This document shows, piece by piece, positions 500-24,180 of a stretch of 64,000 nt of DNA. How positions within the stretch are numbered: the first letter of the stretch is position 1; each line of letters starts with the position of its first letter. Source of the DNA: Haematobia irritans (taxonomy: Eukaryota; Arthropoda; Insecta; Diptera; Muscidae); contig NC_134399.1 of assembly GCF_050003625.1 (NCBI RefSeq), forward strand, positions 146,624,473 to 146,688,472, given 5' to 3'. Below the pieces are notes generated by a model. That model worked only from the letters and a program-made list of their open reading frames with translations, made no database searches and was not told the origin of the DNA. A program made the translations under genes and the position numbers.

Positions 500-1200
500 G
501 GCAGCACTGTTCCTCAGTTATCTTTTATACTCTCCCGTATTCTAAGGTTGTCAATTTAGTGTTTTAGATATATGCATAATGCAAGACAGTACTCTCTCTT
601 TGCTATAGATCTAATATCTTGTGTGAGAGAGAAAGAGATTGTAGATAAATTCTTGCAGCGAAATTTCCGTTTCCATCGTTGAAGTGTTTTATATACACAT
701 CCGTTTCTCTATATACAGAGAATGTTGAGTATTTTTGTCTTCCAATAATTTTTTTAGCTAAAAGAGTGTTTAGTTATTCTCGATTGTTCCTCGAGTTCGG
801 TTTATTCAATGAATGATCGTGGATCGGCTTGTGAAAAATATATTTTGTTTTATTATATGCCCAGTAAATTTTTTGGAAAATGTCTGTGTGCTTTTGTAAA
901 CTTTTAGACTGTACCGCAAAAAACACAATATAAAGGGAATTGTGTTGTGTACCTAGATTGTGTTGAAAATATTCGATACAATTTTATTCTACTATCAAAT
1001 TATGTACATCAAACCATTAAAACAAAATGCAAACACAAAAACAAAATGCAAACCCATGGACCTTCTCTCTCATATTTAAGCCTTTTTGCAAGTTGTGTGT
1101 GTCTAAAAAATGTTTTTAAACGTTTTTAGACGTTTGTACAGTACCTACAGTGTGTTGTATATATAATGGCGAGTAATAAGTAATTGTACGTGGAACTTTC
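500..1200 (+). promoter_or_regulatory. T unit 1: promoter-like repeat with Inr and DPE
   Basis: First member of the T-unit array. It has GAGAG stretches (about 625-640), the CCGTTTC...ATATACAGAGAATGT block, then TTAGTT at 770-775. Taking the A at 772 as +1, GGTTT lies at +28 to +32 (799-803), the position of a downstream promoter element. The far end (1080-1190) matches the first-exon end of the T1 subtype, including ATGGCGAGTAATAAG at 1167, where the reading frame soon stops. No TATA box is placed at -30. Promoter function is inferred from motif geometry and conservation between copies. Confidence 0.5.
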
Positions 1201-1216
1201 TTGCAATTAAATTATT

Positions 1217-1289
1217 CTTCTCGAGGAACACTCGAGAATAACTAAACACTCTTTTTTTAGCGAAATTGTTATTGGATACCAAAAAAACG
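1217..1289 (-). repeat. Inverted fragment of a T-unit core promoter
   Basis: Reverse complement of the 1683-1755 part of T unit 2, from GGTATCCAATAAC through TTAGTTATTCTCGAG. It sits between units 1 and 2 and points the other way, so a local rearrangement took place inside the array. Confidence 0.7.
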
Positions 1290-1298
1290 TTTTGATTC

Positions 1299-2000
1299 TA
1301 ATCAATTTCCAACACACTTAGATAAAATTATGTATAACAAAACATCAATGTACTCTTAGAGTCATTATTGTTGTTGTTGGTGTGGGTTTAGGTATTTTGC
1401 AAAATCAAAACAAACAAGAAATACAAAATCATTTAACTTCTCTCTTAAATTATCTTTTTATACTCACTCACATTCCCAGTGTTGTCAATTTAGTGTTTTA
1501 TATATAGGTTTACTGCAAAACAGTACAATAAAGAGTTTCCTGACTCTCTTCACAATAGCTCAAATATATTGTGTGTGTGAGAGATGGGGAGAGAGAGAGA
1601 GTAGATAAATTCTCGCAACGGAAATTTTCGTTTCCATCGTTTAGATATACATCCGTTTCTCTATATACAGAGAATGTGCGTGTTTTTGGTATCCAATAAC
1701 AATTTCGCTAAAAAAGAGGGTTTAGTTATTCTCGAGTGTTCCTCGAGTTCGGCTTATTCAATGAATGAACGTGGATCGGTTTTTTGTGAGACGGCTTGTG
1801 AAAAATATACATATTTTATTTTATTAAATGACCCGTAAATTTTTTGGAAAATAATTTCTTTGGCTGTGTGCTTTTGAAAACTTTTGAACTGTACCGCAAC
1901 AAATACAATATAAAGGAATTGTGCTGTGTACCTAGATTGTGTTGAATGTAGAATTGTGAGAAGTCAGTGAAGGTATGTATAATGAATATTCTTGCAATCA
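1299..2000 (+). promoter_or_regulatory. T unit 2 (T2 subtype): promoter-like repeat
   Basis: Starts AATCAATTTCCAAC, passes a GTTGTTGTTG tract, CTCTCTTAAATTATC, CCCAGTGTTGTCAATTTAGTG, and a GAGAGA tract at 1580-1605. TTAGTT is at 1722-1727 (A+1 at 1724) and GGCTT at +28 (1751-1755), a weak DPE match. The sequence between (TTCTCGAGTGTTCCTCGAG) looks like alternating heat-shock-element pentamers. It ends GTCAGTGAAG|GTATGT near 1970, a good 5' splice site, but the upstream ATG found in other units reads ATTG here. Confidence 0.5.
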
Positions 2001-2287
2001 AATTTATGTGCTGAATATGACATTTATGCCAAACAAATTCAATGCAATTTTATTCGTGTTTCTTCTTGTTATGTACATACTTAGCGAAAACAAAATGCAA
2101 ACCCATGGACTTTCTCTCTCATATTTAACCCTTAAATGCACAAGCTCACCGATTCCTCCGAAAAAATATATAATGTGCAAATTGTAAATAAAGAACATCT
2201 GTATACCACATTAAAAAAATAGTGGTTGTATCTTAAAAAATACTGTGCGAATTATTTTTTTTTTTATTTTAAATTTTTATTTACAAA
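2001..2287 (+). other. Array body, no gene seen
   Basis: AT-rich spacer following T unit 2. It contains ACCCATGGAC and AATGTGCAAATTGTAAATAAAG, the last resembling a polyadenylation signal (AATAAA at about 2187). The same spacer recurs at 8396-8680. Confidence 0.4.
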
Positions 2288-2807: not shown

Positions 2808-3205
2808 AATAGACAGTTTGATTTTAGTAAAGAATATATATATGTTTACCCTACACAGCTTTTTTACCAATATTACTTTAATCTCTGGTAAATATTATTA
2901 AACTTCCAATTTGTATTTTTGATCACAATTTGATTTTTAATTTTGGCGTCAGATTACACAGAAGTACAACGAATTTTCCGAAAAACTTATTTTTAGAAAT
3001 AGCGCTATGACGTACTAAATACAACAAACCTAATTTTATAGATTTCGGTCAACATTTTAAGGCGTACAATTTTCTAACAAAATGTACTTTCTCCATAAAT
3101 CCATTAATATCTATTTATATATTGAACACTAAAATACCATGTTATTAATACATTTATAAACTATTTTTGTATAGAAGGTTTTTGCTAATAGTTTTCCTTC
3201 AGACA
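2808..3205 (+). repeat. Array body with a short direct repeat
   Basis: The stretch 2988-3065 (AGAAATAGCGCTATGACGTAC ... GATTTCGGTC, spaced) recurs at 5228-5305, giving an internal direct repeat of about 80 bp. In the second duplication copy the pair is at 11350-11430 and 11700-11765. Nothing coding is visible. Confidence 0.6.
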
Positions 3206-3207
3206 TA

Positions 3208-4140
3208 AAGGGTGATTCTTTTGAGGTTAGGATTTTCATGCATTAGTATTTGACAGATCACGTGGGATTTCAGACATGGTGTCAAAGAGAAAGATGCTCA
3301 GTATGCTTTGACATTTCATCATGAATAGACTTACTAACGAGCCACAACGTCAAATTTTCAGTGAATGGGCCCTAGAAAAGTTGGCAGAAAATCCGCTTTT
3401 TTATCGACAAATTTTGTTCAGCGATGAGGCTCATTTCTGGTTGAATGGCTACGTAAATAAGCAAAATTGCCGCATTTGGAGTGAAGAGCAACCAGAAGCC
3501 GTTCAAGAACTGCCCATGCATCCCGAAAAATGCACTGTTTGGTGTGGTTTGTACGCTGGTGGAATCATTGGACCGTATTTTTTCAAAGATGCTGTTGGAC
3601 GCAACGTTACGGTGAATGGCGATCGCTATCGTTCGATGCTAACAAACTTTTTGTTGCCAAAAATGGAAGAACTGAACTTGGTTGACATGTGGTTTCAACA
3701 AGATGGCGCTACATGCCACACAGCTCGCGATTCTATGACCATTTTGAGGGAAAACTTCGGAGAACAATTCATCTCAAGAAATGGACCGGTAAGTTGGCCA
3801 CCAAGATCATGCGATTTGACGCCTTTAGACTATTGTTTGTGGGGCTACGTCAAGTCTAAAGTCTACAGAAATAAGCCAGCAACTATTCCAGCTTTGGAAG
3901 ACAACATTTCCGAAGAAATTCGGGCTATTCCGGCCGAAATGCTCGAAAAAGTTGCCCAAAATTGGACTTTCTGAATGGACCACCTAAGACGCAGCCGCGG
4001 TCAACATTTAAATGAAATTATCTTCAAAAAGTAAATGTCATGGACCAATCTAACGTTTCAAATAAAGAACCGATGAGATTTTGCAAATTTTATGCGTTTT
4101 TTTTTTTAAAAAGTTATCAAGCTCTTAACAAATCACCCTT
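3208..4140 (+). mobile_element. DD41D (rosa-like) Tc1/mariner element, internally deleted, copy 1
   Basis: 933 bp with 10-bp terminal inverted repeats AAGGGTGATT flanked by TA on both sides (3206-3207, 4141-4142). The paralogous empty site in the second duplication copy (11541-11556) reads the same flanks with CA in place of TA, so the limits are set by comparison. It lies head-to-head with a near-identical copy 65 bp downstream. Confidence 0.92.
3321..3974 (+). CDS. DD41D transposase without its DNA-binding domain, premature stop
   Basis: 217 codons. The catalytic core is present: Asp35 in FSDEAHFWLNG, Asp128 in WFQQDGATCHTA and Asp170 in CDLTPLDYCLWGY. Forty-one residues separate the last two, which fits the DD41D (rosa-like) branch of the IS630-Tc1-mariner superfamily. 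The N-terminus MNRLTNE is joined directly to PQRQIFSEWALEKL; family members known to me have about 120 residues of helix-turn-helix DNA-binding region between these two motifs, so an in-frame internal deletion is inferred. The family C-terminus ending NEIIFKK is cut off by TGA after NWTF (an Arg codon in copy 2). The catalytic triad alone should not bind the element ends, so this copy is unlikely to be autonomous. The ATG at 3321 is chosen because MNRLTNE matches the usual family start. Confidence 0.85.
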   Translation: MNRLTNEPQRQIFSEWALEKLAENPLFYRQILFSDEAHFWLNGYVNKQNCRIWSEEQPEAVQELPMHPEKCTVWCGLYAGGIIGPYFFKDAVGRNVTVNGDRYRSMLTNFLLPKMEELNLVDMWFQQDGATCHTARDSMTILRENFGEQFISRNGPVSWPPRSCDLTPLDYCLWGYVKSKVYRNKPATIPALEDNISEEIRAIPAEMLEKVAQNWTF

Positions 4141-4205
4141 TATTATCATTAAAGAACAAAACAAAAAATATTATGTACTATACCACAATTCTAATATTCT
4201 AGATA

Positions 4206-5140
4206 AAGGGTGATTTGTTAAGAGCTTGATAACTTTAAAAAAAAAAAAAAACGCATAAAATTTGCAAAATCTCATCGGTTCTTTATTTGAAACGTTAGAT
4301 TGGTCCATGACATTTACTTTTTGAAGATAATTTCATTTAAATGTTGACCGCGGCTGCGTCTTAGGTGGTCCATTCGGAAAGTCCAATTTTGGGCAACTTT
4401 TTCGAGCATTTCGGCCGGAATAGCCCGAATTTCTTCGGAAATGTTGTCTTCCAAAGCTGGAATAGTTGCTGGCTTATTTCTGTAGACTTTAGACTTGACG
4501 TAGCCCCACAAAAAATAGTCTAAAGGCGTCAAATCGCATGATCTTGGTGGCCAACTTACCGGTCCATTTCTTGAGATGAATTGTTCTCCCAAGTTTTCCC
4601 TCAAAATGGCCATAGAATCGCGAGCTGTGTGGCATGTAGCGCCATCTTGTTGAAACCACATGTCAACCAAGTTCAGTTCTTCCATTTTTGGCAACAAAAA
4701 GTTTGTTAGCATCGAACGATAGCGATCGCCATTCACCGTAACGTTGCGTCCAACAGCATCTTTGAAAAAATACGGTCCAATGATTCCACCAGCGTACAAA
4801 CCACACCAAACAGTGCATTTTTCGGGATGCATGGGCAGTTCTTGAACGGCTTCTGGTTGCTCTTCACTCCAAATGCGGCAATTTTGCTTATTTACGTAGC
4901 CATTCAACCAGAAATGAGCCTCATCGCTGAACAAAATTTGTCGATAAAAAAGCAGATTTTCTGCCAACTTTTCTAGGGCCCATTCACTGAAAATTTGACG
5001 TTGTGGCTCGTTAGTAAGTCTATTCATGATGAAATGTCAAAGCATACTGAGCATCTTTCTCTTTGACACCATGTCTGAAATCCCACGTGATCTGTCAAAT
5101 ACTAATGCATGAAAATCCTAACCTCAAAAGAATCACCCTT
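4206..5140 (-). mobile_element. DD41D (rosa-like) Tc1/mariner element, internally deleted, copy 2
   Basis: 935 bp, inverted relative to copy 1 and differing by few substitutions. Same AAGGGTGATT ends with TA target duplication (4204-4205, 5141-5142). The empty site at 11600-11622 reads ATTCTAGATATAAGG, exactly the flanks with one TA, so insertion was clean. The shared internal deletion shows both copies descend from one deleted ancestor. Confidence 0.93.
4314..5027 (-). CDS. DD41D transposase without its DNA-binding domain, full C-terminus
   Basis: 237 codons, open from MNRLTNE to NEIIFKK. It has the same in-frame loss of the N-terminal helix-turn-helix region as the neighbour at 3321-3974, and the same triad Asp35, Asp128, Asp170 (DD41D). 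It differs by a handful of residues (for example Leu for Pro at 25, Ala for Thr in the MTIL segment, Phe for Cys in DYFLW) and keeps Arg where the neighbour has a stop. An uninterrupted 237-codon frame in a non-autonomous element could mean recent amplification or selection for a short protein; a truncated transposase may act as an inhibitor, as in some other DNA transposons, but that is speculation. No promoter is recognisable beyond the element ends. Confidence 0.87.
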   Translation of the reverse strand: MNRLTNEPQRQIFSEWALEKLAENLLFYRQILFSDEAHFWLNGYVNKQNCRIWSEEQPEAVQELPMHPEKCTVWCGLYAGGIIGPYFFKDAVGRNVTVNGDRYRSMLTNFLLPKMEELNLVDMWFQQDGATCHTARDSMAILRENLGEQFISRNGPVSWPPRSCDLTPLDYFLWGYVKSKVYRNKPATIPALEDNISEEIRAIPAEMLEKVAQNWTFRMDHLRRSRGQHLNEIIFKK

Positions 5141-5142
5141 TA

Positions 5143-5664
5143 TAAGGCTAAGCCACTTCTGTGCAATACCTTTAGAAAGATAAGAAAGAAAATTGAATAA
5201 TCTTACTATTAAATAAAGAATGAATAAATTATTTTTAGAAGTAGCGCTATGATGTACTAAATAAAACAAACCTAATTTCATAGATTTCGGTCAAAATTTT
5301 AAGACATAAGATTTTTTTTGGTTGTATCTTGAAAAATACAACGCGTATTTAAGGGTTAAGTTTATTTTTTCGCATTATTGTAATATCACTATATCACTAT
5401 GCTTTCCGTTTTAATCATAGTGCTGTTAATTTCGTAGAGCACAGAAACTTTTATTCAATTTTCTGTTTTAATAATGGCTCGAAAAATTTATCAAGAAAAT
5501 GTTGCTATACATTTCAGTGACCGTACAAATGTTTCACGTTAACTAAAGCATAAGAAAATTGTTGTAAACTTTTCCAAATAGTAAGAATATACTAAAGTGT
5601 GGTTAATATGATCATTATGATTTTCTTGTTGTATTTTTTAAATTTGAAATTAATTTTTTTTCGT
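5143..5664 (+). other. Array body, no gene seen
   Basis: AT-rich continuation of the duplicated backbone, matched at 11611-12106. Contains the second member of the 80-bp direct repeat (5228-5305). No coding frame or RNA signal found. Confidence 0.5.
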
Positions 5665-5667
5665 TTA

Positions 5668-6031
5668 AGGCCGATATGCACCTCTAGCGAAATTTTCGGT
5701 AGCAAAAGTTTATTTAAGTCTACAACAAAAAAACAGGGCTGTGTACACAAATTTTAAAGCAGCTAATCGCTTTTAAAAATTGTTAATATATGTTCCAAAT
5801 ATTCCTCAAATAAATTGTTTATTATTTACAGACCTTTTAAAACTTTTACGCACACAATGTTTGTAATAAATTAAATGTTTGCTGCCAAAATATGCTTTTG
5901 ACAACCCTGTTATTTTCATTAGAGGTGCGTACCAGCTTACGAAATTGAACGCTACCGGAAATTTCGTTAGCATAAATAGCAATGCATTTCTTATGGGAAT
6001 GAAATTTTTCGCTAGAGGTGCATACCGGCCT
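5668..6031. mobile_element. MITE with about 28-bp TIRs and TTA target duplication (PIF/Harbinger-like)
   Basis: 364 bp. Left end AGGCCGATATGCACCTCTAG, right end its inverted near-copy AGGCCGGTATGCACCTCTAG. Flanked by TTA at 5665-5667 and 6032-6034. The second duplication copy has the empty site CGTTTAATTGG at 12104-12114. A 3-bp TTA duplication is typical of PIF/Harbinger; the superfamily call is inferred from this and not from any transposase. Confidence 0.8.
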
Positions 6032-6375
6032 TTAACTGGAAGTTGTTTTCTTTGGTGTCTACACGCAAAAAAATAATTCTTTCCTCCCAAACGAAATTTT
6101 AGAAAAACAAAGTTCGTTTCTCACAGCTTTTCGCTGTAAGGAAGTGTATTTGGAAGAAAAGTATATACTTTTTGAGATAAACGTTTATTATTTTCCAGGA
6201 TGTAAAAACAATTTCATAAAGACAAACTCAAAAAAAAAAAGACATTGTTTTCTTGCTAATTGCATTTTCTCTCACATCCACGAGGTTTTTTAGTTCGTAA
6301 CACCTTTTCCTGTAATACCAACAATGTAGAAGAAATTATACGATTTTATAAATTTTTAAAATTTTGTTACCTTTC

Positions 6376-6440
6376 GCCTGGACGGAGAATCGAACCGGAC
6401 CATGCACTTTGTAAGCCAACACACTAACCACTGAGATATG
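6376..6440 (-). ncRNA. tRNA-like segment (Pol III boxes), minus strand
   Basis: Read on the minus strand: TATCTCAGTGGTTAGTGTG (A-box-like) and, about 35 bases later, GGTTCGATTCTCCG (B-box). The stems do not pair well enough for a working tRNA. Related copies lie at 12438-12502, 48850-48915 and 59563-59640, so it is a repeat-borne SINE head and not a tRNA gene. Confidence 0.5.
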
Positions 6441-6558
6441 TTTCTGTTATGGTCATCAATAGATAAATATCCATATAAGTTATATTTATATAGCATAGCT
6501 TGCGGCGCGCACGAACCGAATAAACAAAGTTTATTTAACATAAACAAACATTTAGTTT

Positions 6559-6632
6559 GGCACCGTGGCGCAGTGGTTGCTACGTCCGACTTGGATGCCA
6601 AGGGTCGTGGGTTCGATCCCTGCTTCGACCCA
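6559..6632 (+). ncRNA. tRNA-like segment (Pol III boxes), plus strand
   Basis: GCACCGTGGCGCAGTGGTT (A-box-like) and GTGGGTTCGATCCCTGC (B-box), followed by an oligo-T run that could end Pol III transcripts. The words CACCGTGG, GGTCGTGGGTTCGAT and CCTGCTTCGACC are the same as in the head of the window's SINEs, so both derive from one tRNA-like ancestor. Confidence 0.55.
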
Positions 6633-6930
6633 AGTTTTTTTTTGTACATATATTCTAGATATGTTCGAGAGATTCCGACAAAATGTTCAACATAACATTG
6701 CAGTATATTAAATTTTGAACTGTAAAATATGTCTTATTAACTACCTAAAGTCAGAAAAGAACAGTGTTTGATATAAACGAAATGGACTGTGTTGTTGTTT
6801 CAAAAATAACTTTTTTAATGAAAAAATAAAAATTTTGTAACAAACAAATTTTTTTAAATTTTGGAAACAATTCAAAAAACTCTAACAAAAAAAACCGTTT
6901 CCGGTACACGTTTTGTTTTCTTTGCGTGTA

Positions 6931-7289
6931 TAATTCAAAATGAATTATATGTCACATTGACAAATTCAAATTTCTACGACTCCTAAACAATTGTTTTATA
7001 TTCAAATTGTTTTTTCTTTAGCCTACTTGAGAAATCTTAAAGTAGAAAACGCTTCACAAGCAGACCTACAGGTGATTGTTAAATTCTTCTTTTTTGTAAA
7101 CGTTTGAAAACGAAACGTTTTTCCACCAAAAAACACCAACCACGCATGGTGTTTTGCTAAACTCTTCTATTTTTTTATGAGATGTGCTTAAATGCGTTAC
7201 ATACTGCAGTTAAAACAAATTTGTTTTTTTTTTTTGTCTTTGTTTGAGAAAAAGACATTCAACAAGTTTCAACAAAGAGATGTTTTGTT
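6931..7289 (+). other. Array body upstream of T unit 3, no gene seen
   Basis: Contains TTAGCCTACTTGAGAAATC and ACCTACAGGTGATTGTTAAA, blocks that also precede T units 5 (13070-13370) and 7 (14430-14690). They therefore belong to the array repeat and not to an insertion. Confidence 0.5.
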
Positions 7290-7693
7290 TTAAAATAAGA
7301 CCTCTCTTTCTCTCCGAGAATATCCGTTTCCACTAATTGATATTTTTGATGTTTCCATCCGTTTCTATTCTATGCAGAAAGTGTTGCTTCATTGTAGGTA
7401 TCCAGCAACTATTTAGCGAGAAGGCCGGTTAGTTCTAATCAAGCGTTCATTTCGATCGGTTGTTGTCTTGCTTCGTCGTTGATTTTTTGTTTTGCTTGTG
7501 AAATATATACTGTGTTTATTGATAATCTAAATGACTACTTAAGTTGTGTGTGGCTATGAAATGTTTTTAAGCGTTTTTAGACGTTTGTACTGTACCTAAT
7601 GTGTGTTGTATATAATGGCGAGTAATAGTAAAGGTATGTCGAACTTTCCTGCAATTACAATAGTCTTCTGCATGTAGCTTTCCAGTTTTGCTA
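7290..7693 (+). promoter_or_regulatory. T unit 3 (T1 subtype): promoter plus first exon candidate
   Basis: TATA-less. TTAGTT at 7429-7434 with A+1 at 7431; GGTTG at 7458-7462 is exactly +28 to +32 and fits the DPE consensus RGWYV. About 184 bases downstream lies ATG (7615) opening ATGGCGAGTAATAGTAAAG, directly followed by GTATGT (7634), a strong insect 5' splice site. The inferred first exon is 203 nt, the same length as in unit 5. TACTAAT (7693) resembles a branch point but no acceptor is clear. Confidence 0.55.
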
Positions 7694-8395
7694 CTAATCA
7701 ATTTCCAACGCACTCATATAAAACTATGTATAAGAAAACATCAATGTACTCTTGGAGTCATTATTGTTGTTGTTGTTGTGTGTTAAGGCATTGTGCAAAA
7801 CCAAAACAAACAAAAAATGCAAATTCATTGAACCTCTCTCTTAAATTATCTTTTTATTCTCTCTCGCATTCCCAGTGTTGTCAATTTAGTGTTTTATATA
7901 TAGGTTTACTGCAAGGCAGTACAATAAAGAGTTTCCTGACTCTCTTCACAATAGCTCAAATATATTGTGTGTGCGAGAGATGGGGAGAGAGAGTAGATAA
8001 ATTCTCGCAACAGAAATTTCCGTTTTAGATATACATCCGTTTCTCTATATACAGTGAATGTGCGTGTTTTTGGTATCCAATAACAATTTTGCTGAAAAAG
8101 AGTGTTTAGTTATTCTCGAGTGTTCCTCGAGTTCGGCTTATTCAATGAATTATCGTGGATCGGTTTGTTGTGAGACGGCTTGTGAAAAATATACATATTT
8201 TGTTTTATTAAATGACCAGTAAATTTTTTGGAAAATAATTTCTTTGACTGTGTGCTTTTGAAAACTTTTGAAGTGTACCGCAACAAATACAATATAAAGG
8301 AATTTTGTGGTGTACCTAGATTGTGATGAATGTAGAATTGTGAGAAGTCAGTGAAGGTATGTATAATGAATATTCTTGCAATCAAATTTATGTGC
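7694..8395 (+). promoter_or_regulatory. T unit 4 (T2 subtype): promoter-like repeat
   Basis: Duplicate of unit 2. GAGAGA tract at 7975-7995, TTAGTT with A+1 at 8108, GGCTT at +28 (8135-8139). A TTCTCGAGTGTTCCTCGAG block lies between them. Ends GTCAGTGAAG|GTATGT near 8365. Confidence 0.5.
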
Positions 8396-8679
8396 TGAAT
8401 ATGACATTTATGCCAAACAAATTCAATGCAATTTTATTCGTGTTTCTTCTTGTTATGTACATACTTAGCGAAAACAAAATGCAAACCCATGGACCTTCTC
8501 TCTCGTATTTAACCCTTACAAGGGTCACCGATTCTTAAATGCACAAGGTCACCGCTTCCTCCGAAAAAATATATAATGTGCAAATTGTAAATAAAGAACA
8601 TCTGTATACCACATTAAAAAAATAGTGGTTGTATCTTAAAAAATACGGTGCGAATTATACTAAATTTTTATTTACAAAC
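8396..8679 (+). other. Array body, no gene seen
   Basis: Copy of 2001-2287, with a short local duplication of CACCGATTC / CACCGCTTC around 8525-8555. Confidence 0.4.
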
Positions 8680-9034
8680 ACCAAACAAAAAAAAAATGAA
8701 CCCAACGGGGAAGAAAATGTTGGTTTATTTTAGAAAAAATTAACTAAAATAGTTTTCTAATTGCAACATGTTATAAATAAGTTAATACTTTTTCGGAAGA
8801 TTTTTTTTTTAATAATTCATTTTTTTCTGTTGTTCAAGAAAATTTCATATGTTGAAAGAAAAAAAATTGGATTTAAAAACTGTTAAAATGTCTTTAGCGC
8901 TGTACGAAGTTCAAGACAGGTACAAGTTTAGCAAAATTTATGAACTCAATTTAAGCAAACTTCTGCCATTTTAGGCAAATATGAACTATTTTATTTTGTA
9001 GTAAAATTGTGCACTATATTTGTATACAACTTTT

Positions 9035-11021
9035 TATACCCTAAACCACATAGTGGTCAGGGTATAATAAGTTTGATCGGCCAAAAAATATGCCTACCAG
9101 AAATATTGATTTTAGACCCCATGAAATATATACCGATCGACTCAGAATCACCTCCTGAGTCGATCTAGCGCTTGGTGTCCGTCCGTCTGTTCATGTATTT
9201 GTTGTTCACAGGATTCCGGTCGCAATTATTAACCGATTTTGATGAAATTTGGTACAGGGAGTTTTTTTGGGCACAAGGACGAACGCTATTGAATTTGGAA
9301 GAAATCGGATCAAATTTAGGTCACGTTGCGCATTTTTTCAAACGGATCGTCACCAAATTTGCCAAAAGGTAATCCTTTTCATCGTCCTTCAAGTCTGCAA
9401 AATTTTATCCAAATCGATTCAGATTAAGATATAGCTCTCATATATATGTATCGCCCGATTTTCCCAAATTTGGCCACAAAACCTTTATTTATCAACCGAT
9501 CTTACTCAAAGTTGGCTAAATATAATCTTCTATAGCACTAACTATATGTGCAAAAAATCATCGAAATCGGTTCAGATGTAGCTATAGCTCCCATATATAT
9601 GTACCGCCCGATTTTTCTAAATTTGGCCATAAAACCCTTATTTATCAACCGATCTTACTCAAATGTGGCTATACGTAGTCTTCTATAGCACTAACTATAT
9701 GTGCAAAATTTCATCGAAATCGGTTCAGATGTAGATATAACTCCCATATATTTATCACCCGATTTTGAAAAATTTGCCCCTAATAACCTTATGTTTGACC
9801 ATACAGGCCTCATTTCTTAACTGATCTTATTCAAATCTTGCATAAGATTACCTTTTTGTGGTATTAATCAAACCAGCAAAATATTATGCAAATTGGTTCA
9901 GATTTAGATATAGCTTCCATATATATACATCGCTCGAGTTTCCCAAATTTGGCCATAGTACTCTTATTTATCAACCAATGTTACTCAAATTTCAAATTTT
10001 GATGTACTAGCCGATCGTACTTATCCTACATAAGAATATTGCTCGATTTTTACAAATTTGTATTTATTACCCACACTAATTTAACGATTTTCTCTTTTTT
10101 AATAATGGGCTCAATATTAGTGGCATACTAGCTCCGTAGGTGCAATATCAACACTGCCAGTGTTGCTAGAAGTAGGTGAAATTCCCTAGATGTAGGGTTT
10201 TTCTAATATTAAGCGTCTTGTAGGGACGTAGGGCCACAATGTAGGACATTCTCACTCAACACAATTTATAATAATTTTTACATTTTGGTGGCTCTAGATG
10301 AGGAAATTAGAAGCCGGCAAGGCTTGATCTTTAATAATGTGTGGTAAACTTTATTCCTGTAGAAAATTTTGTCAACATTTTATTTCTATAGAACATTTTG
10401 TCAAAATTGTATTTCTATAGAAATTTTTTTTCAAAATATTATTTCTATAAAAATTTTTCTCAAAATTTTATTTCTGTGGAATTTTTTCTCAAAATGTTAT
10501 TTCTATAGAAACATTTCTCACAAAAATTTGTTTATAGAAACTTTTTCCAAAATTTTATTTTTATAAAGATTTAACAAAAAAGATTACTAATTTGGGTAGA
10601 ATTCTACCAACTGCGGCAACCGTGGTCGTAATACAAATTTATATTCTAAGTTATATATGTTGCATATTCATGTTTTAAGATAATAAAGTACTTAGAACCA
10701 TTTTTGTTTTGTAAAATTTTTTAAATTTAACGAAAAATATAGTAGGGAAAATTGTTTGGGAATGTATAGGAAACTAGGGAACTTTTTTTGTCCTTGTAGG
10801 GTAAACCGAACATTTTCCCTGCCAACATTGACTATGAGCTATAGTCAGATTGACACAAAGCACCCATAGACATGTACCCCTTAATTTTCTTAAGTATGCA
10901 ACAGCGGTTTATCTCCCAGACATATATGTTACCCCATAAATGCTTATGATTACTAATTCTGTAATGGTGGTTCAGGATATGATATAGTCGGCCCCGCCCG
11001 ACTTTCTACTTTACTTACTTG
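9035..11021 (+). mobile_element. Family D Helentron-like element, complete
   Basis: Begins ATACCCTAAACCACATAGTGG with a sub-terminal inverted repeat (CAGGGTATAA) and ends AGTCGGCCCCGCCCGACT hairpin followed by ...CTTACTTG. Inserted in a T tract: copy 1 of the duplication has the empty site at about 2651-2660 (ACTTTTTTCTT). No target duplication is visible apart from Ts, which fits rolling-circle insertion between T residues. The front part carries 153-bp monomers (CGCCCGATTTT at 9452 and 9605). It contains a 29-bp minisatellite stretch. No Rep/helicase is encoded, so it is non-autonomous. Confidence 0.8.
10340..10570. repeat. 29-bp palindromic minisatellite, short run
   Basis: About eight diverged monomers with core TTTCTATAGAAA, followed by the flank CTACCAACTGCGGCAACCGTG that also ends the large element at 52616-56816. 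Confidence 0.8.
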
Positions 11022-11174: not shown

Positions 11175-12106
11175 GAATAGACAGTTTGATTTTAGTAAAG
11201 AATAGATATATGTTTACACTACACAACTTTTTTTACCAACATTACTTTAATCTCTGGTAAATATTATTAAACTTCCAATTTGTATTTGTGGTCAAAAAAT
11301 GATTTTTATTTTTGGCGGCAGATTACACAGAAGTACAACGAATTTTCCGAAAAACTTATTTTTAGAAATAGCGCTATGATGTACTAAATACAACAAATTT
11401 AATTTCATAGATTTCGGTCAAAATTTTAAGGCGTACAATTTTCGAACAAAATGTACTTTCTCCATAACATTAAAATACCATGTTATTAATACACATATAA
11501 ACTATTTTTGTACAGAAGGTTTTTGCTAATAGTTTTCCTTCAGACACATTATCATTAAAGAACAAAACAAAAAATATTATGTACTATACCACAATTCTAA
11601 TATTCTAGATATAAGGCTAAGCCACTTCTGTGCAATACCTTTAGAAAGATAAGAAAGAAAATTGAATAATCTTACTATTAAATAAAGAATGAATAAATTA
11701 TTTTTAGAAGTAGCGCTATGATGTACTAAATAAAACAAACCTAATTACATAGATTTCGGTTCGATTGTATCTTGAAAAATACAACGCGTATTTAAGGGTT
11801 AAGCTTGCTTTTTCGCATTATTGTAATATCACTATATCACTTGCTTTCCGTTTTAATCCTAGTGCTGTTAATTTCGTAGAGCACAGAAACTTTTATTCAA
11901 TTTTCTGTTTTAATAATGGCTCGAAAAATTTATCAAGAAAATGTTGCTATACATTTCAGTGACCGTACAAATGTTTCACGTTAACTAAAGCATAAGAAAA
12001 TTTTTGTAAACTTTTCCAAATAGTAAGAATATACTAAAGTGTGGTTAATATGATCATTATGATTTTCTTTTTGTATTTTTTAAATTTGAAATTAATTTTT
12101 TTTCGT
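11175..12106 (+). other. Array body with empty sites for three elements
   Basis: Unoccupied counterparts: DD41D copy 1 at 11541-11556, DD41D copy 2 at 11600-11622, and the TTA-flanked MITE at 12104-12114. No gene seen; the 65-codon reading near 11765 is not conserved in copy 1. Confidence 0.8.
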
Positions 12107-12620: not shown

Positions 12621-12693
12621 GGCACCGTGGCGCAGTGGTTGCTACGTCCGACTTGGATGCCAAGGGTCGTGGGTTCGATCCCTGCTTCGACCC
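12621..12693 (+). ncRNA. tRNA-like segment, plus strand (second copy)
   Basis: Same as 6559-6632, B-box GTGGGTTCGATCC, then an oligo-T tract. Confidence 0.55.
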
Positions 12694-13369
12694 AAGTTTT
12701 TTTTTGTACATATATTCCAGATATGTTCGAGAGATTCCGAAAAAATGTTCAACATAACATTGCAGTATATTAAATTTTGAACTGTAAAATATGTCTTATT
12801 AACTACCTAAAGTCAGAAAAGAACAGTGTTTGATATAAACGAAATGGACTGTGTTGTTGTTTCAAAAATAACTTTTTTAATGAAAAAATAAAAATTTTGT
12901 AACAAACGAATTTTTTAAAAATTTTGAAACAATTCAAAAAACTCTAACAAAAAAAAACCGTTTCCGGTACACGTTTTGTTTTCTTCGCGTGTATAATTCA
13001 AAATGAATTAGATGTCACATTGACAAATTCAAATTTCTACGACTCCTAAACAATTGTTTTATATTCAAATTTCTTTAGCCTACTTGAGAAATCTTAACGT
13101 AGAAAACGCTTCACAAGCAGACCTACAGGTGATTGTTAAATTCTTCTTTTATTAGATCTTTTTTGTAAACGTTTGAAAACGAAACGTTTTTCCACCAAAA
13201 AACACCAACCACGCATGGTGTTTTGCTAAACTCTTTTATTTGTTTTTTTTCTATCTATGAGATGTGCTTAAATGCGTTACATACTGCAGTTAAAACAAAT
13301 TTGTTTTTTTTTTTGTCTTTGTTTGAGAAAAAGACATTCAACAAGTTTCAACAAAGAAATGTTTTGTTT

Positions 13370-13772
13370 TAAAATAAGACCTCTCTTTCTCTCCGAGAAT
13401 ATCCGTTTCCACTAATTGATATTTTTGATGTTTCCATCCGTTTCTCTTCTCTGCAGAAAGTATTTCTTCATTGTAGGTATCCAGCAACTATTTAGCGAGA
13501 AGGCCGGTTAGTTCTAATCAAGTGTTCATTTCGATCGGTTGTTGTCGTGCTTCGTCGTTGATTTTTTTGATTTGCTTGTGAAATATATATTGTGTTTCTC
13601 GATAATCTAAATGACTACTTAAGTTGTGTGTGGCTATGAAATGTTTTTAAGCGATTTTAGACGTTTGTACTGTACCTAAAGTGTGTTGTATATAATGGCG
13701 AGTAATAGTAAAGGTATGTGGAACTTTCCTGCAATTACAATAGTCTTCTGCATGTAGCTTTCCAGTTGTGCT
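13370..13772 (+). promoter_or_regulatory. T unit 5 (T1 subtype): promoter plus first exon candidate
   Basis: TTAGTT with A+1 at 13511; GGTTG at 13538-13542 is +28 to +32. ATG at 13695 opens ATGGCGAGTAATAGTAAAG|GTATGT with the splice site at 13714. The inferred first exon is again 203 nt, and the start codon, six codons and splice site are unchanged from unit 3. Confidence 0.55.
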
Positions 13773-14043
13773 ACTAATCAATTTCCAACGCACTCATATA
13801 AAATTATGTATAAGAAAACATCAATGTACTCTTGGAGTCATTATTGTTGTTGTTGTTGTGTGTTAAGGCATTGTGCAAAACCAAAACAAACAAAAAATGC
13901 AAATTCATTGAACCTCTCTCTTAAATTATCTTTTTATTCTCTCTCGCATTCCCAGTGTTGTCAATTTAGTGTTTTATATATAGGTTTACTGTAAGGCAGT
14001 ACACTAAAGTGTTTCCACAGTCCCTTCACAATAGCTCAAATAT
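13773..14043 (+). promoter_or_regulatory. T unit 6 (T2 subtype), truncated before its core promoter
   Basis: Matches units 2 and 4 from AATCAATTTCCAAC to CACAATAGCTCAAATATA and then diverges at about 14044, so the tandem duplication or a third partial copy ends here. Inr and DPE are absent. Confidence 0.6.
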
Positions 14044-14747
14044 ATATTCATTTGAGTAAATTTTTTATTACTAGCTTTTTCATATGTTTAATAGGAAATT
14101 TAAAATTGTTGTGTTTCAAATTGGTTAAAAACTGACAAAGAATTAATAAAATGATAGAATTTTTTTTTAAATTTTGGCGAAAAAAAAATGCTACATTCAT
14201 TCTAGAAAAATTGCGATGTATTTGTATATTAATACATGTATTAAAAAAGAAAGTAAATAGTCGTTAGATAAAGTCTGCATCGTAATTTTAATATTTATTG
14301 AGCCTAAATATAAAGACAGATAACTTCATAAAAACTGTCTTTATTTTAAAGGTGAATAATCTTTCTTTTGGAATCAATGCCAAAATCTTTAAAGGAAGGT
14401 AAAAACTTTGAATCCAAGTTAACTTTTCCGTTAGCCTTTTTGAGAAGTTTCAAAGTAGAAAACTTTGGGAATTTTCAAAGTAGAATTTTCAAAGTAGACT
14501 TACTGGTGATTGTCAAATACTTTTTTTTATCAGTTTTTTTCTTATAAAACTTTTTGCACCAAAATCCATCAGAGAGTTTAGCACTACACGCAGGGTATTT
14601 CTTTTTTTGTTTTTATTTGAAAAAAATACATTCAACAAGTTTCAACAAAGAGGAGTGTTTTAAAAGAGTAGGCCTCTCTCTCTCTCTCTTTCAAATGGCT
14701 ATTTCATTTTGGAAAAGAGAGATTCTATTCATTTTTGCAGTGAGAAC
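14044..14747 (+). other. Diverged array body before T unit 7
   Basis: AT-rich. 14430-14690 matches the blocks that precede units 3 and 5 (TTAGCCTTTTTGAGAAG, ACTTACTGGTGATTGTC) and ends in a (TC)n run at 14675-14690. No gene. Confidence 0.5.
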
Positions 14748-14914
14748 CAGTGTTGCCAGTATTGGGGATTTTTCCCCAACTTGGGGATATTTTTTCGTAA
14801 ATGTGGACGATATTCCTGAGCTGGGGACTTGGGGATTTGGTGGGGAATTTCGATTAATTTGAGGATTTTTTCGAAAAAAAACTATTTAATCTGTTTTAAT
14901 AAAATATTATTTCA

Positions 14915-16990: not shown

Positions 16991-17321
16991 CAAATTCTAC
17001 CAATTTACCAAAAATAATCTACCATTACTTGTAGAATTCTATCAACTTTGGCAACGTGTCTACCACCCAATTTTACTACTTGAATATGTAGCAGTAAATT
17101 TTTGTTCATAAATACAAGGAGACCGATAACCATTTGCTTGGAGTTGTGGATTTTACAAAATTTTAATTTTTAAATGATTACTGATTTTCTACAGCAGGGC
17201 CTTTTGCTTTTTTTTCAAAACAAAAAAAAAAAAAAATACATATCAAAAATGTATTGGGAATTTTTGGGAACGAAAACATCATAATTTGGGGACAAGAATC
17301 AGAAAAATACTGGCAACACTG

Positions 17322-17750
17322 GTGAGAATATCCGTTTCCACTAATGGATTTTTTGATGTTTCCATCAGTTTCTCTTCTATACAGAAAGTTTTGCGTCAGG
17401 TTAGGTACTATTTTGCCAGAAGGCTGATTAGTTCAATTCAAGTGTTCATTTCGATCGGTTTTTGTCTTGCTTCGTCGCTGATCTTTTTGATTTGCTTTTG
17501 AAATAAATATTGTGTTTATTAATAAACTAAATGACTATGCAAGATGTGTGCTTTTGAAATCATTTCACACTGTAACAAAAAACCAAAATGTAGAAAGACA
17601 TTTGACTTAAAGAGTCTTGTGTATAGAATGGCTACACATTTAAGTGAAGGTATATTGGAGCTTTTTATTTTGAAATTTACCTGCAATTACATTAGTCTTC
17701 TGAATATAGTTTTTCAGTTTTGCCAATATTGTTCAATGCTATACTAATCA
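17322..17750 (+). promoter_or_regulatory. T unit 7 (T1 subtype), right part after hAT insertion
   Basis: Continues the unit broken at 14747. TTAGTT with A+1 at 17430; GGTTT at 17457 is +28. The start region reads ATGGCTACACATTTAAGTGAAG followed by GTATAT (17628-17655): ATG and splice site are kept though the codons between have changed and one has been added. Confidence 0.5.
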
Positions 17751-18350
17751 ACTTCCAAGGAATTCATATAAAAGTATATAGAACAAAACATCAATGTACT
17801 CTTAGTCAATATTGTTGTTGTTGTGTGGTTAGTTATTTTGCAAAACAAAAAACACATACCAAATTTTTGAACTTTTCTCTTAAATTATCTGTTGATACTC
17901 TCTCGCATTCTCAGTGTTGTCAATATAGTGTTTAATGCTACGCAGTAAAACAAAGAGTCTCCCTCTCTCTTTCCAATATTATCGTGTGAGAGAGTTTAGA
18001 TAAATTCTCGCAGCAAAAATTTCCGTTTCCATTGTTGAAGTGTTTTATAATACATCCGTTTCTCTGCAGAGAATGTTTGCATTATTTTTGGTATCCAATA
18101 ACTGTTTAGCCAAAAGAGTGATTAGTTAGTTTCGAGGGTTTTTCGTGATCGGTTTATTGAGTGAAGGTCGTTGATCGATTTTTTGCAAATCCGCTTGTGG
18201 AAAATATATTTTGTTTTATTAAATGACTATTAATTTATTGGAAATCAATACTAAACTGTACTGACAAAACTAAAATAAACACCGAATTTTATTTTATGGT
18301 GTACCTAAAGTGTGTTGAATATAAAATGGTGAGTAGTCAATGAAGTTAGT
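17751..18350 (+). promoter_or_regulatory. T unit 8 (T2 subtype): promoter-like repeat
   Basis: CTCAGTGTTGTCAATATAG, GAGAGAG at about 17985, GGTATCCAATAACTG, TTAGTT with A+1 at 18124, GGTTT at 18151 (+28). Downstream AAAATGGTGAGTAGTCAATGAAG (split here by coordinates 18324-18346) keeps an ATG but its frame stops and the GT donor is lost. Confidence 0.5.
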
Positions 18351-20438
18351 ACACTGACAAAAAAAAAAAAAAAAAACAGTGAACCCACCAGCAAGAACAT
18401 TTTTGGTTTACTTTAAAAACTATAGATTATTTTTAGAAAATTTTTAACTAAACAGTATTACAAGCGCTGGCATCACGCCGATATCACAAAAATAAGTAAA
18501 TATTTTTCGACACATTCAAGAAAATTGATTACACATAATTAATTTTGTAGTTTGAAGGAAAAAATGGGAGTGCCATACGATGTTCACGATGCATCGTGGG
18601 TTGAGCGGTAGGCAAAGTGGCGATTAATTCAGGAAAGCCGTAATTTTAAAATATTGTTATTTTTTATTGATGGATATTCATAAATACATAAAAAGGCATA
18701 ACTAGAAACAACAACAAAAATTTTAAAAATTGTTGTTTTAATCTTTTATAGCCTTTTTTGTATTTTGGAAAAAGTGGTCTTATATCACAATTTTCGCTGT
18801 AACTTTTCAAAGAAAAACGATAAATTAGGAAATGCAATTGAAAATTAGAGTATACTTAATGTGCTTTTAGAAAAAAAAATGTTCTTAAAAAATAAAAATT
18901 AATAAATATATAATCTGTATTTATATACCCAAAATTTTAAATTAAAATCCGATTTTTTTTCTTCAAGTTCCGTAATTCCACATATTTAAAAAAAAAATTA
19001 CATTAGAAAATATTATTATATCTTATTGAACAATATTCATAAAAAACATAGTATACAAATAAAACAAACAACCATTAAAGGAAAAAAATAAGTAAAAAAA
19101 ATATAATTGTACGGTTTTTTTATTTACTTCATTTCATTAATTTTAAAAGTATTCATAATCATCATTTACTTCACAACCATTATAAAATTAATTTACTTAA
19201 TAATAATAATTTTCTTCTTAATCATCATACAATTCGTTAACATAATCTTCATCTTCATTATCTTCATCATCTTCGTCACCATTATCATTTTCATTTTGGG
19301 TAAGAATAAGTAACTCCAATGCAGTCTAAGGCATTTGCTGCATTTTCATTTTGCAACTCTTTCTCTTGCTCGAAATAAATGGATCTGAACTTAGAAGAAA
19401 TCTATTAAAGACGTCTTCTATTGTATTTTCCCGACTGAATTTACGGGAAAAGTGCTCCCTATAGCTTTTGAAGTCCTTATTTCTGGCTTCCTGATATTCT
19501 TCAGTTAGCTTATGAAGCTTTGTAAGTAATTTGGAATTAATTAATTAATTTTTTTTCGTGAGTGCGCGTGATTTAAAATTACTCACGTACCCATCTCTAA
19601 TAAACTGCACACTCAGTAGCTACAATAACAAATACTAAACGGAATATAAAGACAAAAGCTAATAAGGTCAAAGTGATTTTTTGTTTATTTTATTTTTTCA
19701 TATATATATTTTTATTTTACAAATTATTTAATAAGTCAAAAAATGCAACAAAAAGGCAAAAAGATGTTTTGGAATGTATAAGCTGAAACTTCATATTTTA
19801 AGAAAATATAAGCAGTTTTACTAAGTTTCACCGATAATTCAGTTGAAATCCTACAAACATCAAAAATACCTCATTTTTGGAGCAATTTCCTAATATTTTA
19901 TTTTTTTTCAATATTTCCAAAACATTTATCTAAACAAACAAATATTTATCATATGCTCAAATACCTGAAGTAGACGGCTTCATTATAAAATTTTCACCTT
20001 TAGAAGTCTTAATTAAAAAAATGATCACTGGAAATATGCAAATTTTCACTTTTAACCAATGCGCGCAAAAATAATAATAATTATTGAACTTTGAAGACAC
20101 ACTGCAAATAAAGTAAACGACTAAGAACTTTTATTTTGGCAAGTAGTGATGTAGAATTTTATCTTCTTTCACCCGGTACCAAATACGGTTATTAAAGTTA
20201 AAGTTCATCCTTTGAATTAATCGCCAGTTTTGATGGATTTCAACCCTCTGTGCGATGGACGCATTTGTATTAAAATTTAAATAATGAACTATTTTGTTAA
20301 AAGTACGAATTTAGTAAATTTTTATGCTTCATTTGTGTATATTTTTTCCGGTTTTTTAGTTCATTTAACGAAACATAATAATTCCATGAACTAAAAGAAA
20401 GTTAACTTGGCTTTAGTGAAATAAAGGATTCATTTTTT
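18351..20438 (+). other. Diverged array body, mostly non-coding
   Basis: Starts with a CACTGAC(A)n GTGAACCC end homologous to the CAC-ended element at 2288 and ends with a homologue of its right part (20290-20430), so this is the same body expanded by about 1.5 kb of unmatched AT-rich sequence. Contains one possible coding relic on the minus strand (19210-19547). Confidence 0.5.
19210..19547 (-). pseudogene. Possible coding relic with acidic tail, unrecognised
   Basis: On the minus strand a frame without stops runs from about 19547 to a TAG at 19326-19328 (about 74 codons). It is charged and non-repetitive, with KLHKLTEEYQEARNKDF and EDVFNRFLLSSDPFISSKR. Beyond, in another frame, comes an acidic stretch NGDEDDEDNEDEDYV (about 19230-19275). 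The frame change suggests decay. I do not recognise the family and no start codon or splice site is convincing. A chance open frame in low-complexity DNA is the main alternative. Confidence 0.3.
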
Positions 20439-21800: not shown

Positions 21801-21862
21801 AAAAAAAATACTAGTTTTGGTAGAATTCTACCAACTGTGGCAACCGTGTTGGTAATACATAT

Positions 21863-22263
21863 CAAAGATAATTAAGAAGAAGATGCAGTCTTGTCATAGC
21901 AAAACTGAAGCACCAGAGGACTCTGCCAACAAAATATCATAAAGTTTGCGTCGACGTGTTTCTCAAATGTACTGCCGTTTGCGTCGGAAAATATAACATT
22001 TGTGTTTCTCATAAATTTCTGAATAAAAACCCACAAAAGCAATACCAAAACGATTGTAGAAAATGAAAGTTTTTGTATTTTAAAGCGAATATTCATTATG
22101 TTTTTATGTGAATATTGCCGTTTAAATTTATTCCTGGGCAGAGCTGCTTTGGAAACAATTGACAAATAAAACAATTTTTTTTCTCATAGCCCTCTACACC
22201 TTGACATTTGTTTTCTTTTTATAAGAGCACAATGCTTAATCTTGTTATACTCAATTATCTTTG
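21863..22263. mobile_element. 401-bp MITE inside family D
   Basis: TIRs CAAAGATAATTAAG and, reversed, CAAAGATAATTGAG. The site is uninterrupted in the other family D copy near 10632 (GTAATACAAATTT). TACA appears on both sides, but the exact duplication is uncertain because four extra bases (ATAT) precede the left TIR. A 100-codon minus-strand reading inside is probably chance. Confidence 0.7.
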
Positions 22264-22577
22264 TACAAATTTATGTTCTCGGTTATACACGTTGCATTTT
22301 CATGTTTTAAGATAATAAAGTACATAAAACCATTTTTGATTTGTAAAAATTGTTTAAATTTAACGAAAAATATTGTAGGGAAAATTGTTGGGGAATGTAT
22401 GGGAAGTAGGGAACCTTTTTTGTCCTTGTAGGGTAAACCGAAACCTTCCCCTGGCAACACTGACTATGAGCTATACTCAGATTGAGACAAAGCACCCATA
22501 AACATGTACCTCTTAATTTTCTTAAATATGCAACTGCGGTTTATCTCCCAGACCTATATCAGTGTTACCCCACAATG

Positions 22578-22966
22578 AAAGTCCAAAAGACAATAAACTT
22601 TTCTATAAGTCCTTTTGTCCTTACAAAGAAGTGATTCGACTTAAAAATGGGTATCTTAAAATTAAGGAAAATTTTGTTTAACTACGGTGAACTTGTATTT
22701 AATAATTATGAAAAAATCTGCAAAATTGTCTTTTAATGTGTCGTCGTAAAAATAGATGTTGTTTTGCAACACTTTATTACAAAGACGATATTTACTTGAA
22801 ACTTAACATAATTTCATCTTAAAATCGAGTATAAATTTGAAATTTTAAGTTGTCGTTAAGACCTTTAATAACACATGATGTAAATATGGTCGCCACAAAT
22901 ATAGCTCCTCTCATATTATTTTACTCTTCGAGTATAATTGTCTCAATTATGTTTCTTCTCTGTGTG
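22578..22966 (-). mobile_element. Partial TA-flanked CACGCA-type element
   Basis: Reversed, it starts CACACAGAGAAGAAACATAA and matches the left 80 bp of 33044-34146 (ATAATATGA, GGAGCTAT, GCGACCAT). TA follows at 22967-22968. The far end is missing at the junction with family D, so a deletion or recombination joined the two. Confidence 0.65.
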
Positions 22967-22968
22967 TA

Positions 22969-23240
22969 GTAGCTATTTAGCCTGAAGGCTGGTTAGTTTT
23001 ATTCAGTGTTTACTTCGCTCGGGTTTTGTCTTGCTTCGTCGTTGATCGTTTTGATTAGCTTATGAAATATATATTGTGTTTATTAATAATCTAGATGACT
23101 ACTCAAGTTGTCTGTCTAACATATGAATTTTTTTTTAACCTTAAAGAAACACCCAAAATGTAAATAGACATTTGTACTATACCTAAAGTGTGTTGTGTAT
23201 AGAATTTTGTTCAAAGGTATACTAATACATTTTCAAACAC
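22969..23240 (+). promoter_or_regulatory. T unit 9 (T1 subtype), 5' part replaced
   Basis: TTAGTT with A+1 at 22995; GGTTT at 23022 is +28 in spite of an indel between the two. The ATG is lost (GAATTTTG) but AAAG|GTATAC remains near 23213. Confidence 0.45.
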
Positions 23241-24180
23241 ACTCATATACAATTATATATATAACAAAGCATCAATGTACTCTTGAAATCATTATTGGTG
23301 TTGTTGTTGTTGTATGGTTAGTTATTTGCAAAAAAACAAACGGATACAAAATAATTGAAGCTCTCTCTTAAATTATCTTTTTGTTCTCTCTCACATTCCC
23401 AGTATTGTCAATTAAGAGTTTTGAATATATGCTAAATGCAATGCAGTACAAGAGAGACCATAGACTATAGACTTTAGATAGATGATCCACTATTCTCTTT
23501 AAAAAAAATGTGTCAGTTCCAAAAATTAATTTTCTGACATTTCGTTTTGATTTTTTCGTAAAGAGTCAGTCCCAAACATTAATTTTCGTGCATTTGCTTT
23601 TGTGTTGTTCGTAAAGAGCAATGCTGCTCAAAATTAAATTTCGTATTTTCGCGATTTTGGTCACAATTTTTTGTTCAAATATGAACTTTTAATATATTAA
23701 TTTATTTATAAATCCTCTGTTGCATCATACACGTTCTAATTTTGTGTAAAATTAGCAAACTACAAAAAGGAAAACGAAAGAGATTGTAAGCGTGCTCTTA
23801 TTTTTCTCGTTTATTCTTAATCTTCGGAACTATCAAAAATAGTTTGACACTCATGGCTCATCTATCTAAAGTCTATAGTCTATGAGAGAGACTCCCTCTC
23901 GCATTCCAATGGAACTATTTTCTTGTGTGTGAAAGAAAGAGAGACAGAGTGTGTACATAAATTCTCGCAGCGAGAATTTCCGTTTCCATCGTTGAAGTGT
24001 TTTGATATACATTCGTTTCTCTACATACAGATAATTTTGCCTTATTTTTGTTATCCAAAAAATATTTGGTCGCAAGAGTGGTTAGTTATTTTCGAGTATT
24101 TCTCGTGATCGGTTAATGCAATGAATGGTCGTTGATCGAATTTTTTCTTTCAAACTACGAAATTTTCTTTAATAAGTGAC
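23241..24180 (+). promoter_or_regulatory. T unit 10 (T2 subtype), interrupted by a MITE
   Basis: GTTGTTGTTG tract, CCCAGTATTGTCAATTAAG, then a MITE at 23459-23884, then GAGAG runs, CCGTTTCCATCGTTGAAGTG and TTAGTT with A+1 at 24084. GGTTA at 24111-24115 is +28 to +32, a full RGWYV match. Confidence 0.5.
23459..23884. mobile_element. 426-bp MITE with 27-bp perfect TIRs and 8-bp target duplication
   Basis: TIRs start CATAGACTATAGACTTTAG and are perfect inverted copies over 27 bp. AGAGAGAC is duplicated exactly at 23451-23458 and 23885-23892. Eight-base duplications are made by hAT and P superfamilies; the CA start and long perfect TIR are closer to P elements, but no transposase is present. The perfect ends suggest a recent insertion. 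Confidence 0.9.

Follow-up and report, generated by a model that had tools for sequence, protein, structure and literature searches.

At one locus of Haematobia irritans, short sequence units repeat the letters TTAGTT and carry GG(T/C)T at a fixed distance downstream, which raises the question of whether they are promoters whose geometry is held by selection or related copies that share their spacing by descent. The locus lies in NC_134399.1 (C3):146,624,473-146,688,472, a stretch of 64,000 nt that we call the window; the genome comprises 1.17 Gb in 181 contigs. An initial annotation had described nine diverged promoter-like units with an invariant distance between an initiator (Inr) and a downstream promoter element (DPE), and the array it described is real. 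We read it, with moderate confidence and from its sequence features, as an old, locus-specific tandem array of promoter-plus-first-exon monomers of about 0.7 kb, which would act as alternative promoters of one downstream transcript. The main rival is the decay of a tandem duplication, and the claim of a constrained geometry is at most suggestive.

The array contains at least ten copies, nine directed rightward (plus strand) and one leftward (minus strand). A scan of 264 kb around it with a profile of the unit (cut-off at an expectation value, E, of 0.1) recovered ten copies and seven partial or weak matches, all between -1.5 and +27.6 kb. On a tree the copies form two sub-types, T1 (772, 1724, 8108, 18124, 24084 and the minus-strand copy) and T2 (7431, 13510, 17430 and 22995), each copy being named here by the A of TTAGTT (A+1). 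The members and fragments are given below in window numbering, in which negative values lie left of the window start, with donor-like (5' splice site-like) sequences and their scores where present.

A+1 at -1074 (1.07 kb left of the window), minus strand: tenth copy, T1, with GGTT at +28 (homology, alignment).
About -569 to -367, left of the window: partial piece (BLAST, self-comparison, profile).
518 to 970, plus strand: T1 copy, A+1 at 772, no good donor at the homologous place (BLAST, profile match 526-970, alignment, donor scan).
1088 to 1221, plus strand: remnant of a T2 putative exon without the promoter part (profile, BLAST).
1220 to 1289, minus strand: inverted 70-bp piece of the T1 core, about -45 to +24, 95.7% identical to 1679-1747 (profile).
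1459 to 2023, plus strand: T1 copy, A+1 at 1724, donor AAG/GTATGT at 1973, score 5.6 (profile).
7313 to 7680, plus strand: T2 copy, A+1 at 7431, donor AAG/GTATGT at 7634, score 5.6 (profile).
7685 to 7855, plus strand: block with CT tracts running from the T2 exon to the T1 promoter, recurring in other modules (BLAST query, self-comparison).
7855 to 8407, plus strand: T1 copy, A+1 at 8108, donor AAG/GTATGT at 8357, score 5.6 (profile).
13392 to 13760, plus strand: T2 copy, A+1 at 13510, donor AAG/GTATGT at 13714, score 5.6 (BLAST, profile).
13935 to 14045, plus strand: truncated T1 upstream part (profile).
14663 to 14767, plus strand: weak piece of the unit's upstream region (profile, E 0.00036).
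17288 to 17711, plus strand: T2 copy, A+1 at 17430, weak donor AAG/GTATAT at 17650, score 1.0 (profile).
17894 to 18399, plus strand: T1 copy, A+1 at 18124, best donor shifted, ATG/GTGAGT at 18329, score 6.9 (profile).
22968 to 23242, plus strand: T2 copy, A+1 at 22995, with a 1-nt deletion near +10, non-homologous sequence upstream and no good donor at the homologous place (alignment, profile).
23382 to 23457, plus strand: T1 upstream fragment, with unrelated sequence between it and the 24084 copy (profile).
23878 to 24145, plus strand: T1 copy, A+1 at 24084, homology ending at about +62, donor not seen (BLAST, profile, donor scan).
27462 to 27611, plus strand: fragment of the block upstream of T1, the right-most trace of the array, 75-81% identical to the corresponding blocks.

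The unit is made up of a GA/CT-rich block (in T1, not in T2), a TATA-less initiator-like start and a putative exon of about 203-249 nt. T1 and T2 share 60-66% identity over the aligned unit, and the closest copies share 96%. T2-T1 pairs alternate along the array at distances of 677-694 bp (7431/8108 and 17430/18124), with 1089 bp separating 22995 from 24084. The block that follows T1 resembles the block that follows T2; the score was reached by none of 500 shuffles in one of three comparisons, and by 4 and 35 of 500 in the others. This resemblance suggests that the ancestor of the array was a tandem monomer of about 0.7 kb, on which transposon insertions and more recent duplications have been superimposed (1289-2657 with 7685-9035, and 5141-7965 with 11610-14045, by self-comparison).

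Three whole-genome searches place the unit at this locus alone. A T1 query of 181 bases and a T2 query of 421 bases each returned 7 matches in the 1.17 Gb, all of them within the array, and a 31-bp core pattern allowing up to one mismatch occurred at 11 places; 9 of these belong to the array, 7 as exact matches, and the other 2, with one mismatch each, lie outside it. The reversed pattern, used as a control, likewise occurred at 2 places, equal to the number of off-array core matches; the array copy passed over by the core pattern was 22995, owing to its deletion. No dispersed copies were found in these searches, whose sensitivity is limited: common words were skipped and the best candidates alone were scored, so that strongly diverged copies may exist elsewhere. 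The result argues strongly against a dispersed transposon, which the unit can hardly be. Internal Inr/DPE promoters are known from non-long-terminal-repeat (non-LTR) elements of flies, and transposon open reading frames (ORFs) lie between the copies; an origin as LTRs, or as the 5' ends of such non-LTR elements, nevertheless seems to us very improbable in view of the missing dispersed copies and of the tandem, alternating T2-T1 order.

The core of the unit was compared with known promoter elements. All nine units originally listed contain TTAGTT with the first letter of GG(T/C)T at precisely +28, as does the minus-strand copy. TTAGTT occurs 40 times on the plus strand of the window, 10 times with GG(T/C)T at +28 (the nine units and a site at 29440), and none of 33 occurrences on the minus strand has it; at a background of 0.0053 GG(T/C)T per position, about 0.2 chance matches would be expected among 40. 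The nine units are homologous copies, so the matches at +28 are not nine independent events. The site at 29440 was tried as an eleventh unit and rejected: when it was aligned with a T1 unit, 135 of 500 shuffles matched its score, with a T2 unit 20 of 500 did so, and the profile misses it at E 0.1. Eight of the nine A+1 positions first reported stand, and that of the fifth unit moves from 13511 to 13510. An indel compensated within the ninth unit (24084) had also been described and is absent there; it is the eighth unit, 22995, that has the 1-nt deletion near +10, without a compensating insertion. On the tree, 22995 needs one deletion and no insertion, and its GGT remains at +28 because a GGG run follows the deletion.

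TTAGTT is the longest invariant run (6 letters) over the 385 alignment columns that contain at least 8 copies, and it is invariant in all ten. No TATA box precedes it, TATAWA being absent from -45 to -20 in all nine window units, as the initial annotation had stated. GAGA-type tracts, which that annotation had placed upstream of the units in general, precede the six T1 copies but not the four T2 copies: the 300 bp upstream contain 5, 8, 9, 6, 4 and 11 occurrences of GAGAG/CTCTC in T1 and 2, 2, 0 and 1 in T2. The window background per 300 bp has a mean of 0.41, a 95th percentile of 2 and a 99th percentile of 6.9, a value that three T1 copies surpass. The looser initiator string YYANWYY fits the four T2 copies only. 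The pause button has the consensus KCGRWCG and, in Drosophila, a preferred position at +26 (PMC10950481); an exact KCGRWCG stands at +22 in three of the ten copies (T2 copies 7431, 13510 and 17430).

Downstream of the start, the best donor-like GT (scanned from +60 to +330) lies at the end of the homologous segment, at +204 to +250, in seven of the ten copies, with scores of 4.6-6.9 in six and 1.0 in one (17430); the donor frequencies used for scoring are approximate. The minus-strand copy has two donor-like sites, GTGAGA (4.6) and GTATGT (4.2). For comparison, the window holds 0.38 donor-like sites scoring at least 4.2, and 0.13 scoring at least 5.6, per kb per strand. No good donor was found at the homologous place, within the same scan, in 772, 22995 and 24084. 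By eye, the alignment of the segment has no conserved reading frame: the ATG phases differ between T1 and T2, T1 contains stops and some copies lack the ATG, for which reasons the putative first exon is best read as non-coding.

The initial annotation had left open whether these were alternative promoters or a multi-copy transcription unit. The former is the best reading, given the single locus, the initiator-like start, the lack of a TATA box, the GA/CT blocks of T1 and the donor-like exon ends, with initiation at the A, splicing and a common target of the copies proposed from these features. An intact copy would form a TATA-less RNA polymerase II start region with the initiator-like TTAGTT and a downstream TCGG block, preceded in T1 copies by GA/CT tracts. 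Each start would yield a first exon of about 203-249 nt, non-coding and ending in a 5' splice site. Several copies could then serve as alternative promoters, their leader exons being spliced to the same downstream exon or exons of one transcript, which would lie far to the right, beyond a transposon-filled intron.

Whether the spacing itself is constrained was assessed from indels and substitutions. Pairwise gap events, which repeat the same events between pairs and are counted per 100 alignment columns, number 0.6 at -2 to +32, 1.0 at +32 to +52 and 1.2 at +142 to +172, and 2.7-5.4 in the other segments. Placed on the tree under four alignment settings, the indel events number 1 in -2 to +32, 2 in -2 to +50 and 50-58 outside -2 to +50, making the core the least indel-prone window of 52 columns. 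The deficit is significant per letter (p = 0.02-0.05) and not significant relative to substitutions (p = 0.07-0.21 for -2 to +50, and p = 0.16-0.35 for -2 to +32). Equal indel rates in the core and the rest of the unit, which would have refuted the geometric reading, are not clearly seen, and neither do the low core rates establish constraint.

Two recent duplicate pairs (7316-7965 vs. 13395-14045, and 1289-1990 vs. 7685-8376) allow the unit to be compared with its flanks. The ratio of indels to substitutions was 3:64 in the unit and 13:36 in the flanks (p = 0.0009), or 1:64 and 5:36 when indels in simple repeats are omitted (p = 0.03); per aligned base, the corresponding values for indels were p = 0.02 and p = 0.22. 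Part of the unit's substitutions fall in one 150-bp patch, with 19 substitutions in 1289-1438, where gene conversion could be responsible. Of the sites that differ within the recent pairs, 0 of 14 in the T2 pair and 6 of 21 in the T1 pair have both states represented among the remaining copies, which is no clear sign of gene conversion. A candidate 5'-terminal hairpin of the T1 RNA (+8 to +24) pairs in 90% of cells but has no change on both sides among the 6 sequences, which speaks neither for nor against it. Taken together, the letters drift while the length is kept somewhat better than expected, weakly so. The scarcity of core indels favours the proposed constraint on Inr-to-DPE geometry; against it stand the deficit that is not significant relative to substitutions and the inheritance of the spacing from a common ancestor, by which the copies are not independent witnesses.

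Several observations weigh against a set of working alternative promoters. The invariant TCGG at +26 to +29 is matched in length (4 letters) by two other invariant runs that lie elsewhere. The strict fly initiator TCAKTY fits none of the ten copies, each having one mismatch (T for C at -1), and the DPE consensus RGWYV stands exactly at +28 in three copies (7431, 13510 and 24084) and not in the other seven; DSWYVY fits two of the ten, and the strings for the motif ten element (MTE) and the bridge element match none of them. Four of the ten copies have a weak donor or none, and the ATG found ahead of it in some T2 copies is not conserved among the copies (alignment by eye). In the recent pairs the unit has more substitutions than the flanks (64 in 1340 aligned bases vs. 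36 in 1490, p = 0.0007), and therefore sequence constraint on all copies is not demonstrated. No Rfam family reached its gathering threshold in the window or in 22 other loci scanned, and no host gene was recognised to the right or left of the array by stop-to-stop ORF scans of 264 kb (at least 110 aa, plus scored ORFs) and a further 20 kb rightward (at least 60 aa), 284 kb in total; short downstream exons may escape such scans.

In the rival account, an ancestral promoter and first exon was copied by unequal crossing-over, with one or two copies perhaps working and the rest neutral relics that inherited their spacing. Substitutions per letter are not clearly fewer in the core (0.089 in -2 to +50, vs. 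0.097 upstream and 0.112 downstream) and exceed those of the flanks in the recent pairs, the DPE consensus is kept in the minority of copies given above, 22995 and 24084 are truncated, and 772 joins these two in lacking a good donor. Such decay does not readily account for the scarcity of core indels and of recent indels relative to substitutions, for a TTAGTT that is invariant throughout the ten copies or for the good donors that six of them retain at the exon end or close to it, and we regard it as a possible but less probable account. The alternative-promoter reading can also be extended: a fly transcription unit may have multiplied its own paused-type promoter with the leader exon into at least ten copies, selection keeping the length of the core between initiator and downstream element while its letters drift, as a device of dosage or tissue choice for one distant, possibly non-coding transcript. 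We consider this extension rather unlikely.

The surroundings bear on what the copies might transcribe. By ORF scans the region is rich in transposons: most of the scanned ORFs belong to transposons or are translations of 153-bp and 29-bp repeats, and at most two are small unique candidate exons. One, at 152279-152485 (L022, plus strand), is a 69-aa candidate ORF without repeated words, preceded by an acceptor-like TTCTATTCAG; it may be part of a gene or a transposon remnant, and a Pfam search of it gave nothing over the cut-off. The other, L029:1575-1790 on the minus strand, some 216 kb to the right of the first letter of the window, is an ORF (KRLVTIEEDGRTIRFFAADKPHCNTNHTMGKDKTQ) that by eye resembles a candidate cellular coding exon. 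Pfam searches of nine ORFs gave a single family above the cut-off; it is a BED zinc finger, located at -4.7 kb and probably part of a hAT element. Homeobox (at least 96) and BTB (at least 76) matches were also located in the genome; the nearest on C3 among the matches listed are 4.6 Mb and 1.9 Mb away, respectively, and none of those listed falls in C3:144.7-202 Mb (57 Mb), which may mean that the array borders on a region poor in genes and perhaps pericentromeric.

Such surroundings would also suit promoters of a long non-coding transcript running through transposon-rich DNA, for example a flamenco-like unistrand source of PIWI-interacting RNAs (piRNAs). Clusters of the unistrand type are transcribed from discrete promoters into spliced transcripts, and an Inr is present in the promoters of flam (PMC10643416). 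The right side is transposon-rich with no recognised host gene, and the LTR-type ORFs (two loci, among eight ORFs scanned) have minus-strand orientation, which is antisense to the array. Set against this, those two are the LTR-type loci picked out in 204 kb rightward (from ORFs, not from repeat annotation), and non-LTR and Tc1/mariner-like ORFs occur on both strands; we hold a piRNA source to be decidedly improbable.

Among the other repeats of the window are tandem arrays of a 29-bp unit, CAAAATTTTATTTCTATAGAA, tandem units of 153 bp and mariner-type ORFs, which appear to resemble the repeats of calyptrate flies. The 29-bp unit forms a long array of about 95 copies at 52684-55460, and several 153-bp arrays lie elsewhere in the window. 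Two mariner/Tc1-like elements adjoin in opposite orientation at about 3205-4145 and 4205-5145. The 240-aa ORF at 4317-5036 matched no Pfam family at E 0.001, and ORFs similar to it lie at about -39, -8, +87 and +185 kb. A perfect (TA)53 tract at 60836 is directly followed by 100 N at 60942-61041 (joint span 60836-61041). A stretch resembling a transfer RNA (tRNA), GTGGCGCAGTGG ... GGTTCGATCCC, occurs inside repeats at 6565-6620 and 12627-12682 and is perhaps a tRNA-derived short interspersed element; ARAGORN (bacterial code) called no tRNA genes in the window, these two places included.

If the copies are active, the array is a natural experiment on core-promoter spacing, with ten related promoters at one locus that differ by about 4 to 40% over the unit and in which letters were replaced but the spacing to the downstream element stayed almost constant. 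Promoter and leader exon would, moreover, have been amplified without a recognised amplification of a gene body, an unusual case and one informative about the origin of such arrays and about dosage vs. tissue-split expression. If they are inactive, the array illustrates how spacing that duplicates have inherited can look like functional constraint. To our knowledge, it is unusual for one promoter to exist in ten diverged tandem copies.

Comparison with known systems shows partial likeness to three of them. In the TATA-less Inr/DPE and paused promoters of Drosophila (PMC8461331 and PMC10950481), the former source describing the spacing of the DPE from the Inr as strict, we find counterparts to the initiator-like element, the GC-bearing element at about +22 to +33, the lack of a TATA box and the GA/CT tracts before T1; unlike those promoters, the array has T at -1 throughout, a strict DPE in a minority of copies and no match to the MTE or bridge. 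With the flamenco-type unistrand piRNA cluster (PMC10643416) it would share an initiator-driven, spliced transcript into transposon-rich DNA; it differs in having many promoters instead of one, and no dense antisense Gypsy array was noticed among the ORFs, which are not a full repeat annotation. Within the searches made of the literature on tandemly duplicated alternative promoters, no promoter/first-exon array of this kind was found in flies. In UGT1 and the clustered protocadherins the first exons are variable and a separate promoter serves each of them (PMC3325998 and PMC1885805). As judged from sequence, the array resembles them in its tandem duplicated promoter and first-exon-like units, which lie at one locus, mostly in one direction and mostly with a donor-like end; in UGT1 and the protocadherins the first exons are coding and the constant exons known, whereas the array has an exon without a conserved frame, no recognised constant exons and one inverted copy. 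It is best classed with these systems, as tandem alternative promoters and first exons, with the difference that its exons would be non-coding and that its copy number is unusual.

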